From Bacteroidota bacterium (GTDB taxonomy: Bacteria > Bacteroidota > Bacteroidia > JAFLBG01), in NCBI GenBank assembly GCA_017303975.1, contig JAFLBG010000019.1, positions 1-53,848 of the forward strand: a stretch of DNA of 53,848 nt. The letters are read 5' to 3'. A model generated the notes under the pieces. That model was given only the letters and a program-made list of their open reading frames with translations, had not been told where the DNA came from and did not search any database. Each line of letters begins with the position of its first letter. Position 1 is the stretch's first letter. Below are positions 43,745 through 46,941 of the stretch, one piece after another. Position numbers and translations under genes: made by a program.

Positions 43745-44269
43745 TTAAGAAGCTTTGCCAGAAGCTGATTTGGTTTTAGCAGTAATGCTTTTAGCTGATT
43801 CAAGCATAGTTCTAATTTCCTTTTCTGAAAAGGCATCGCCTTTAATATCTTCAACAACAAATGATTTTTCGCCAGTTTTAATTATAGCATATAAGTGATA
43901 TTCCGATTGATTTTCGATAATTGACGATTCATACAAAATTGTAGTTGGTTCATCAATCAAATATTTTTTTAGTTTATTTACATCATTCCCAGCTACATCA
44001 CTTTTAGCTAAGCTAATATCTCCGGCATCTTCAATAATAGATAATTGAAAGCCTTGCCCAATTTTTATTTCTGTTGCACCCCAAGATTGTTGTACAATTT
44101 CTGCTGTTCCGTTAGTCGAGTCTGGTATGTTAATAGTAGCGTCTAATCCGTATTTAGTTAAATCAACCTGTGTCATGCCGGCAGGTACATTTGCATTTTC
44201 TTTTGATTCGTTACCGCACGATGCTATAAATAGTACACACGCTATAAGTAATAAAAAATTTGTTCTCAT
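43745..44269 (-). CDS. Lipoprotein of unknown function (174 aa)
   Basis: The signal ends in the lipobox LFIASC, with the lipid-bearing Cys near residue 18. The mature part is a small alpha/beta domain (TKYGLDATINIPDST, GFQLSIIEDAGDISLAKSDVAGND) with a Ser/Lys/Thr-rich tail. No family is named with confidence. It converges with the PorE-like gene and diverges from the dipeptide epimerase gene across an AT-rich gap with two palindromes. Confidence 0.65.
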   Translation of the reverse strand: MRTNFLLLIACVLFIASCGNESKENANVPAGMTQVDLTKYGLDATINIPDSTNGTAEIVQQSWGATEIKIGQGFQLSIIEDAGDISLAKSDVAGNDVNKLKKYLIDEPTTILYESSIIENQSEYHLYAIIKTGEKSFVVEDIKGDAFSEKEIRTMLESAKSITAKTKSASGKAS

Positions 44270-44354: not shown

Positions 44355-45389
44355 ATGATTCAACTTAAGTACTACCCAAATCAATTAGAGTTTAAGCATC
44401 CTTTTAAAATAGCGCTTAATGCAAGAACATCCACTTCTGTGGTTTTTGTAGAACTTAAAGCCGCAAGTTTTTCCGGTTATGGAGAAGCTTCGCTTCCTCC
44501 ATACCTTAAAGAAAATCAAGCAAGTGTTGAGCAATATTGTAAAAAAGCGGCAGTGTTATTAGAGAACTACGAAGGAGAAATAAATTTGAATGAACTTTTA
44601 AATGTACTATGGAATTGTATGCCTGAAAATTATGCAGCTAAAGCTGCTTTAGATATGGCAGCACACGATTTAGTTGGCAAAATAAGTGGTAGGAATATAA
44701 GAGAGATATATGGGATACGTGGGCATACAAATTTCCCTACATTTTTTACTATTGGAATAACCGACAACGAAAAGGAGTTGCACCAAAAGTTAGATGAAGC
44801 AAAAGAATATTCATTATTAAAATTAAAACTGGGCTCGACCAATGATAGAATGCTTGTATCTAATGTACGTTCATATACAGATAAACCTATTGCTGTTGAT
44901 GTAAATCAAGGCTGGAAAACAAAGGAGGAAGCCCTTGATATGATACAATGGTTGCAAACAAAAAACGTGTTGTTTGTAGAACAGCCGATGAATAAAAAAA
45001 TGTTGGATGAACACGGTTGGTTAAAAGAGAAATCTCCACTTCCAATTATTGCAGACGAGTCTTTACAAACTTTTGATGATTTAGATGTTGTTGCAAATTG
45101 TTTTGATGGAATTAATATTAAGTTGATGAAGTGTGGTGGTATTAGAGAAGCATTTAAAATAATTACTAAAGCTCGAAACCTTAAGTTGAAGATTTTGATT
45201 GGTTGTATGTCTGAAACTTCGTGTGCAAACTCCGCAGCAGCTGTATTAGCGGGATTGGCAGATTGGGTTGATTTAGATGGCCCATTATTGATTAAAGAAG
45301 ATTTTTTTTGGGGATTAAATTTTTCGAGAGGAAAAATTTATTTGAATGATGAACCAGGGTTGGGAGTAGAGAGACAAAAACTATTGTAA
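44355..45389 (+). CDS. Dipeptide epimerase (L-Ala-D/L-Glu epimerase type, enolase superfamily)
   Basis: A cytosolic enzyme of 344 residues. The muconate-lactonizing subgroup features are all present: the catalytic KxK pair in LLKLKLG (Lys156, Lys158), metal ligands Asp182 (DVNQGW), Glu209 (EQPM) and Asp234 (ADES), the opposite-face Lys256 (IKLMKCGG), and DLDGP (306-310), the DxD motif that binds the dipeptide amino group. It epimerises L-Ala-D-Glu from peptidoglycan turnover to L-Ala-L-Glu. The exact dipeptide specificity varies in the family and is inferred. It stands alone and ends five bases before a hairpin. Confidence 0.9.
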   Translation: MIQLKYYPNQLEFKHPFKIALNARTSTSVVFVELKAASFSGYGEASLPPYLKENQASVEQYCKKAAVLLENYEGEINLNELLNVLWNCMPENYAAKAALDMAAHDLVGKISGRNIREIYGIRGHTNFPTFFTIGITDNEKELHQKLDEAKEYSLLKLKLGSTNDRMLVSNVRSYTDKPIAVDVNQGWKTKEEALDMIQWLQTKNVLFVEQPMNKKMLDEHGWLKEKSPLPIIADESLQTFDDLDVVANCFDGINIKLMKCGGIREAFKIITKARNLKLKILIGCMSETSCANSAAAVLAGLADWVDLDGPLLIKEDFFWGLNFSRGKIYLNDEPGLGVERQKLL

Positions 45390-45394
45390 AAGAA

Positions 45395-45416
45395 AAGCCC
45401 CCGATTCCGGGGGCTT
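45395..45416 (-). terminator. Hairpin terminator between epimerase and KAAAP microprotein genes
   Basis: AAGCCCCCG, loop ATTC, CGGGGGCTT: a perfect nine-base stem. On the minus strand it is followed by a T-rich run (TTCTTTTAC), making it a good terminator for the microprotein gene. On the plus strand the following bases are less T-rich (GATTCTTAC), so it may also stop the epimerase transcript less efficiently. Confidence 0.85.
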
Positions 45417-45421
45417 GATTC

Positions 45422-45526
45422 TTACTTTTTCTTTTTAGCTGCTGCTTTCTTTTTAGGAGCTGCTGCTTTTTTCTTAGGAGCTGCTGCCTTCTTTTTTGGA
45501 GCTGCTGCTTTTTTCTTAGTTGCCAT
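45422..45526 (-). CDS. 34-aa Lys/Ala/Pro repeat microprotein (histone-H1-tail-like)
   Basis: The ORF encodes MATKKKAAAPKKKAAAP and continues with the same seven-residue unit PKKKAAA to a Lys4 end; there are four KKKAAA blocks in 34 residues. It contains only Met, Ala, Thr, Lys and Pro, with 16 lysines and no acidic residue, so it is strongly basic. The composition is that of histone H1-type C-terminal tails and of bacterial nucleoid proteins such as Hc1 or AlgP tails, so DNA or RNA binding is likely. Synonymous codon variation between units (AAG/AAA, CCA/CCT) argues for selection on protein sequence. It has its own hairpin terminator nine bases before its stop side and a plausible promoter upstream. 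Confidence 0.75.
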   Translation of the reverse strand: MATKKKAAAPKKKAAAPKKKAAAPKKKAAAKKKK

Positions 45527-45578
45527 GGTTTTTGGTTTTAGTTTATGCATCTAAGTAACTAAAAATGATTCTATAAAA

Positions 45579-45605
45579 CAAACTATTGTGCATTTATTTT
45601 TTCAA
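45579..45605 (-). promoter_or_regulatory. Possible promoter of the KAAAP microprotein gene
   Basis: On the minus strand TTG is followed after 17 bases by TAGTTTG, close to the Bacteroidota -33/-7 pattern (TTG, TAnnTTTG; one base short between TA and TTTG). It would start transcription about 45 bases before the microprotein ATG. The rest of the gap to the methyltransferase gene shows nothing else. Confidence 0.35.
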
Positions 45606-45732
45606 CAGCTTTTTGTTAACAACGTTGGATTTCGATTTTTAGTTCTTGCTCATGTTTAAATATTTTATTTTTTTAAATGAGTGTGCTCTTGTATGTGTTG
45701 TTGATAAAGGGGTGTAGGGTGTTGTGTGAAAA

Positions 45733-46941
45733 TTATTTTTTTCTTTTCAATAAAGCCATGTAAAATCCATCTCCATTTTTTTCTTCCGGAAGAATTCTTT
45801 TTTCTTTTACAAAATCCCATTCACTTCCTTTTTTAGTTAAAAAGTTTTGAATTTGAATCTCTCCTTCGCCTTTAAATATGCTGCATGTAGCGTAAACTAA
45901 AATTCCTTCGGGTTTTACCATCAACGAATATTTTTCAAGAAGTTCTTTTTGGAGATCAATTAATCGATTATACCCATCTTTTTCCAATTTCCATTTCATG
46001 TCCGGATTTCTTCTCCAAACTCCACTTCCCGAGCAGGGAATATCAAGCAAAACTAAATCTGCAGAGTGGTGCAATCGTTTTATTGTTTTGCTCGACTCAA
46101 TTGTTCTAGGTTCAATAATTGATATTCCGTTTCGTACCATTCGCTTTTTTAGTTCGTCCAATTTCCATTTGTGAATATCCAATGCAATAATTTTACCTCT
46201 ATTATTCATGAGCGTTGCTAAATGCAGCGATTTCCCTCCGGCCCCTGCACATGCATCTATTACACGCATGCCCGGTGTTACGTTGCAGAAAATACTTACT
46301 TGCTGTGATGATACATCTTGAAATTCGAAGTGCCCATTTTTAAACTGAGGTGTCTCGAATAAATTTTTATAGGTAGTAACAAATAGTGCATCCTTGGTTT
46401 CCTGAAATTCTGTTGCATCAATTTTGTTCTTGGCAAATTCGGAAACTAGATTGGAGGTGGTTGTGCGAAGCGTATTTGTCCGAACGTGTATTTTAGAGTT
46501 TTTGTTTAATTCGTGCAGTATGTTTTTCCACTCATCGCCATAATCATTTTTTCCAAGTTCATTAATCCAATCAGGAACAGATTCTTCGTTTTCTGTTTTT
46601 GCAACAACGTATTTACCCAAAATGTCAGTTTGTGTGTTCTCCGACACATTGTTGTAGTAATTATTGTTTCTGCAAGTTGCCCAAGCAAAAATTACTTTTC
46701 TAATTTCTAAATTAGTACTCATGTGGTTTTCTATTCCCGCTGCAGCACACCACAATCGCCAGTAACGAATAAGGTCGTAAATGTCGTTTATAAATAACGA
46801 CCTGATTTTTATATCGTCAAAAAACTTATTGTGCTTAAACGTTTGTTCTAGCTCTTTGCTAAGTGTTTTGTTTTCGAAAAGAGTATGTTTAATGATTTGT
46901 TCGAATGCCGGTATAAAATTATTTTTGTTTATCTCGTTCAT
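45733..46941 (-). CDS. RsmB/NOP2-family RNA (cytosine-5) methyltransferase
   Basis: A 402-residue SAM-dependent enzyme. SAM binding is shown by VIDACAGAGGKSLHLA, followed by IIALDIHKWKL. Motif IV has DIPCSGSGVWRRNPDMKW (Cys303, product release) and motif VI YATCSIF (Cys353, the catalytic nucleophile); their 50-residue spacing equals that in RsmB. The N-terminal 150 residues are helical and lack the NusB-like domain sequence of classical RsmB, so the exact target rRNA cytosine is not assigned. It is divergently transcribed from the sodium:solute symporter gene. Confidence 0.88.
   Translation of the reverse strand: MNEINKNNFIPAFEQIIKHTLFENKTLSKELEQTFKHNKFFDDIKIRSLFINDIYDLIRYWRLWCAAAGIENHMSTNLEIRKVIFAWATCRNNNYYNNVSENTQTDILGKYVVAKTENEESVPDWINELGKNDYGDEWKNILHELNKNSKIHVRTNTLRTTTSNLVSEFAKNKIDATEFQETKDALFVTTYKNLFETPQFKNGHFEFQDVSSQQVSIFCNVTPGMRVIDACAGAGGKSLHLATLMNNRGKIIALDIHKWKLDELKKRMVRNGISIIEPRTIESSKTIKRLHHSADLVLLDIPCSGSGVWRRNPDMKWKLEKDGYNRLIDLQKELLEKYSLMVKPEGILVYATCSIFKGEGEIQIQNFLTKKGSEWDFVKEKRILPEEKNGDGFYMALLKRKK

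Follow-up and report, generated by a model that had tools for sequence, protein, structure and literature searches.

Inspection of the window, i.e., the whole stretch of 53,848 nucleotides analyzed here, revealed a very short gene on the minus strand that lies between a convergent epimerase-like gene and a gene for an rRNA methyltransferase (Table 1). The initial annotation had described it as a 34-residue open reading frame (ORF) of KKKAAA blocks with only five kinds of amino acid, and we found it exactly so: the encoded product (here named KAP peptide) is composed of M, A, T, K, and P and contains three PKKKAAA blocks and one KKKAAA block. The repeat units differ by synonymous AAA/AAG and CCA/CCT exchanges only, which also agrees with the variation without amino acid change noted earlier. 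The K/A/P array occurs a single time in the source genome. A second in-frame ATG upstream, at position 45550, would allow a form of 42 amino acids; since this codon directly adjoins the conserved −7-like promoter box and the inner ATGGC serves as the start in relatives, the form of 34 amino acids is the likely product.

Table 1. Features of the KAP peptide locus in the window
Feature	Position	Strand	Details
Putative lipoprotein gene	43745–44269	−	174 amino acids; relatives beside peptide gene elsewhere
Enolase-superfamily dipeptide-epimerase-like gene	44355–45389	+	Convergent neighbor; Pfam MR_MLE_C/MR_MLE_N
Terminator-like hairpin, bidirectional	45395–45416	−	9 pairs, 7 of them G-C; common to KAP gene and convergent epimerase gene
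KAP peptide gene	45422–45526 (stop included)	−	34 amino acids, MATKKKAAAPKKKAAAPKKKAAAPKKKAAAKKKK
Short A-rich leader	45527–45550	−	Ends in ACC-ATGGC, without Shine-Dalgarno site; alignment of relatives
−7-like promoter box	45551–45558	−	TTACTTAG (TTACTTCG in most relatives); conserved in relatives
Palindromic upstream element	45596–45619	−	TNAACA-N6-TGTTNA, then A/T run (TTAACAAAAAGCTGTTGAAAAAAT in window); conserved in relatives
RsmB/F-type rRNA methyltransferase gene	45733–46941	−	Upstream neighbor; Pfam PF01189

With such a sequence, raw protein searches mostly fail under low-complexity correction (nothing matched in the phage set, and matches in the class genomes and in solved structures were weak), and we therefore relied on gene order and DNA signatures to find relatives. 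The first clean relative was a peptide of 44 amino acids (MAKKVVKKAAAPKKKAAAPKKK...) in genome G006, which belongs to a different family of the class and shows the same order of peptide gene, convergent epimerase gene, and divergent gene for a 174-amino-acid lipoprotein. The epimerase was then searched through 295 class genomes, and the surroundings of the 30 best loci were read, these loci being chosen without regard to the peptide. A free-standing, convergent K/A/P peptide of 24 to 57 amino acids was present directly downstream of the epimerase in 18 of these 30 loci (window counted), so that the short Lys/Ala/Pro ORFs suggested as a check at this position do exist in relatives.

Alignment of the 18 loci found by synteny alone revealed a common set of control elements. 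ACC precedes ATGGC in all 18, and in nearly all of them the stop codon is followed, within a few bases, by a GC-rich hairpin and a T-run. The matching terminator claimed for the window was recovered, and its hairpin can end both the peptide gene and the convergent epimerase gene. The promoter box reads TACTTCG in 16 loci, TATTTCG in one, and TTACTTAG in the window. With two mismatches, the box is similar to TAnnTTTG, the −7 element of Bacteroidota. Of the promoter proposed in the initial annotation, this conserved promoter-like box stands, while no E. coli-type promoter was found directly upstream of the KAP gene on the minus strand. The window locus carries all marks of the family, namely, the ACC-ATGGC start, a TTACTTCG-like box, the TNAACA-N6-TGTTNA palindrome, the terminator, and a K/A/P peptide without acidic residues; it deviates from the family pattern in having TTACTTAG for TTACTTCG and MATK for MAKK.

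The palindrome lies partly beyond the interval 45395 to 45605 to which the gene had initially been assigned. When the alignment was anchored at the −7-like box, it appeared about 37 bases upstream of this box as TCAACA-N6-TGTTGA with an A/T run after it. The pattern matched in 18 of the 20 genomes searched, with one site at the peptide gene in 17 of them, including the window. Peptide genes were matched with the 6-base spacer and not with a 7-base spacer. This conserved operator points to a candidate regulator. A few other sites with a 6-base spacer lie before genes that include gyrB (G005, L246) and porP/sprF-like genes in family f21, and a 7-base-spaced variant precedes rpiB (L221, L222, and L223) and a clpC-like gene (L229), likewise in f21. 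The elements TCAACA-N6/7-TGTTAATAAAATA before rpiB, the clpC-like gene, and gyrB hint at a regulator shared with the peptide gene.

A DNA signature of promoter, leader, and start, TACTTCGT-N12-40-ACCATGGCNAARAAR, matched 38 of 395 class genomes, always in one copy, and gave no match in the control. The matches were distributed over the families f21 (12/14 genomes), f37 (9/12), f41 (8/14), f6 (5/6), and f44 (2/2), and f7 and f16 contributed a single genome each. The signature further matched 85 stretches in the named genome collection, and 80 of these were examined as loci. Among these, 71 encode K/A/P peptides of 23 to 81 amino acids (median, 39), all in Bacteroidota records and nearly all in metagenome-assembled genomes; the remaining nine (from Streptomyces, Nocardia, Ramlibacter, etc.) are longer ORFs of ordinary kind that show no K/A bias. 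Members outside the strict signature were found in f61 (17 to 22 amino acids) and f15 (21 to 25 amino acids, one type lying next to murB and a deaminase gene in a synteny of its own), which gives an overall length range of 17 to 81 amino acids. Each of the f15 genomes harbors a pair of short K/A peptide genes at separate loci (L260 and L273 in G014; L261 and L216 in G214). Since the 60 genomes drawn as relatives include none of the window's order, the family appears not to be confined to a single order of the class Bacteroidia.

In 30 of the 71 loci (group A), the epimerase gene is convergent and directly follows the peptide gene. Loci of group B have no epimerase gene and a different lipoprotein-like gene upstream, with the 174-amino-acid lipoprotein family retained downstream. 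A relative of this lipoprotein lies at most 3.5 kb away in 48 of the 71 loci, including epimerase-less ones, and because the family is common to both groups, we regard them as orthologous. Within group A, an RsmB/F gene precedes the peptide gene and reads in its direction at 26 loci (of the 71), so that the proposed search near the methyltransferase gene was also productive.

Comparison of 16 similar peptide pairs of equal length, which partly overlap, gave 24, 31, and 72 differences at codon positions 1, 2, and 3, respectively (p = 6e-8); ten pairs picked to limit overlap gave 12, 16, and 43 (p = 2e-6). Members differ in length by whole codons, and their start and stop remain in frame. Over the 71 members, K accounts for 48.8%, A for 37%, and P for 6% of residues, and D and E are missing in every member. 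Selection acts on frame and composition, not on exact sequence or length, and free length and repeat number combined with a fixed charge pattern are a hallmark of a disordered polycation. As third codon positions vary most and the palindrome, the −7-like box, ACC-ATGGC, and the terminator are conserved, the KAP locus is very probably a gene that is monocistronic, translated, and under selection. Relatives keep the frame as well as the start, the terminator, the promoter, and the gene order, in line with the real gene initially claimed and contrary to the lack of frame conservation that was to count against it. The gene, its control elements, and its orthology by gene order are direct observations, and the KAP peptide gene is a real, conserved member of a family found across many uncultured Bacteroidia. 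No name or match for this family was found in Pfam (no hit for five members at E values up to 10), NCBIfam, solved structures, or the literature as far as covered, and it is apparently undescribed so far.

With their K/A/P-rich composition, nearly without acidic or hydrophobic residues, the KAP members belong to the H1-like lysine-rich class. They share with the C-terminal tail of histone H1 the Lys/Ala/Pro composition, the lack of acidic residues, the repeat-like build, and the variable length, but have no globular domain, measure only 17 to 81 amino acids, and are encoded in bacteria by a separate single-copy gene that has a terminator of its own. The chlamydial proteins Hc1 and Hc2 and Hc1-like proteins (PF07432, PF07382) are likewise bacterial nucleoid proteins of H1-like type, whereas the KAP peptide is much shorter and has no non-repeat part; none of five family members matched these profiles at E values up to 10. 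To our knowledge, all H1-like proteins previously described from bacteria exceed the KAP peptide in length, a point against an H1-like role. The C-terminal KPAA domain of AlgP/PhaF from Pseudomonas consists of tandem Lys/Ala/Pro repeats of a type reported to bind DNA (PMC9239181), but these proteins are larger and carry an N-terminal helical or phasin domain; the KAP peptide is the repeat alone, a whole protein of 34 amino acids, and does not qualify as AlgP/PhaF. Mycobacterial HupB has a C-terminal PAKK/KAAK tail with H1-like basic motifs (PMC5676037), while the KAP peptide has no HU domain. Similarly, bTHX of family f21 is short and basic with a similar K/A/P tail, but the KAP peptide lacks the MGKGDKK core (PF17070) and any Pfam match, and the genome of the window encodes its own Thx on another contig. 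KAP peptides are thus of the H1-like lysine-rich kind, set apart by their tail-only form, size, conserved place, and control elements.

DNA binding has been published for KPAA peptides, and the C-terminal domain of AlgP is similar to the H1 tail (PMC9239181); in HupB, DNA binding is stabilized by the PAKK/KAAK tail (PMC5676037). From the likeness to these tails with published DNA binding, we infer that the KAP peptide would be translated at a useful level, be disordered or helical, and bind polyanions irrespective of their sequence, DNA foremost and perhaps RNA or polyphosphate as well. Once bound, it would neutralize and compact the nucleoid like the C-terminal tail of histone H1, and its affinity would be tuned by the number of repeats, which varies among species, as one expects of a tail driven by charge. 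That the conserved single-copy gene encodes a basic peptide binding DNA like a free-standing H1 tail appears to us slightly better than an even chance, the evidence for the gene being good and our confidence in the function moderate. The free-standing small protein resembling an H1 tail envisaged in the initial annotation is in keeping with the conserved frame, start, terminator, promoter, and gene order and with the K/A/P composition. The condensation of nucleoid DNA or of RNA proposed in the initial annotation may follow from this composition and from the published data on the AlgP and HupB tails; by itself, the composition does not distinguish DNA from RNA, the ribosome, or polyphosphate as the target. 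More tentatively, as a possibility that we would not yet bet on, the family may comprise class-wide minimal linker-histone-like peptides of protamine size (17 to 81 residues) that set nucleoid compaction; they would be encoded by single-copy core genes in many uncultured Bacteroidia, under a conserved regulator dedicated to them.

We consider it unlikely that the peptide is instead an additional small polycation that belongs to the ribosome or binds rRNA, comparable to the basic tails carried by ribosomal proteins. Such a role is possible because in some f21 genomes the C-terminal tails of bTHX and bL21 are the same kind of K/A/P tract; about a third of the loci have an rRNA methyltransferase gene upstream, and short unannotated ribosomal proteins, bS22 and bL38, do exist (PMC10618245). 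However, no sequence match was found in solved structures including ribosomal chains, a comparison in which low-complexity queries score weakly, the genome of the window has a separate bTHX gene on another contig, and the neighbors of the peptide gene change between lineages and are not ribosomal operons. A peptide that organizes or neutralizes polyphosphate granules is quite improbable: H1-like AlgP with its KPAA repeats associates with such granules and sets their spacing, and polycationic peptides form condensates with polyphosphate (PMC9239181), but AlgP has an extra N-terminal domain that the KAP peptide lacks, and no polyphosphate gene recurs among the clustered neighbors.

Being short, independent, and equipped with a conserved promoter and terminator, the unit could also produce a regulatory small RNA in which the open frame is incidental, and the transcript does fold more stably than shuffled sequences (z = −3.7). 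Much of this predicted stability is supplied by the terminator hairpin, though, all Rfam matches were below threshold with none reaching the gathering score, and the excess of third-position changes and the whole-codon length changes with preserved start and stop make this reading very improbable. A chance low-complexity ORF or the decayed remnant of a longer gene is scarcely credible. Low-complexity repeats are common, and genome G031 has look-alike DNA tandem repeats at contig ends; yet synteny, signature, a single copy per genome, and a purifying pattern extend over at least nine families, and the existence of syntenic orthologues excludes a chance origin of the ORF.

Should the KAP peptide compact DNA, it would rank with the smallest chromatin-like proteins of bacteria, being an H1 tail alone, and would offer a simple system for the effect of a disordered polycation on the nucleoid. 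Very short low-complexity genes are easily missed by gene callers and masked in similarity searches, which is how a conserved gene can stay unseen.

Several look-alikes were set aside. Seven matches in G031 were rejected because they are units (FEKKAAG) of a DNA tandem repeat and mostly lie at contig ends; this repeat is dispersed over many contig ends (L002, L007, L009, L011, L013, and L015) and probably breaks the assembly. Identity with bL38 was likewise rejected, bL38 being a structured protein at 23S helix 95 (PMC10618245) and the KAP peptide matching no solved ribosomal chain. Most of the loci read for matches to the pattern KKAAAPKK proved to be tails of bTHX, of bL21, or of longer K/A-rich proteins and not free-standing. 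In f21, long K/A/P tails occur on bTHX (MGKGDKK...; L039, L040, L041, L046, L048, L050, and L052), and K/A/P tails also on bL21 (L042, L043, L047, L049, and L051). Other families of the class encode proteins of about 150 residues that consist almost wholly of K/A/P repeats (L055 in G221 and L068 in G075).
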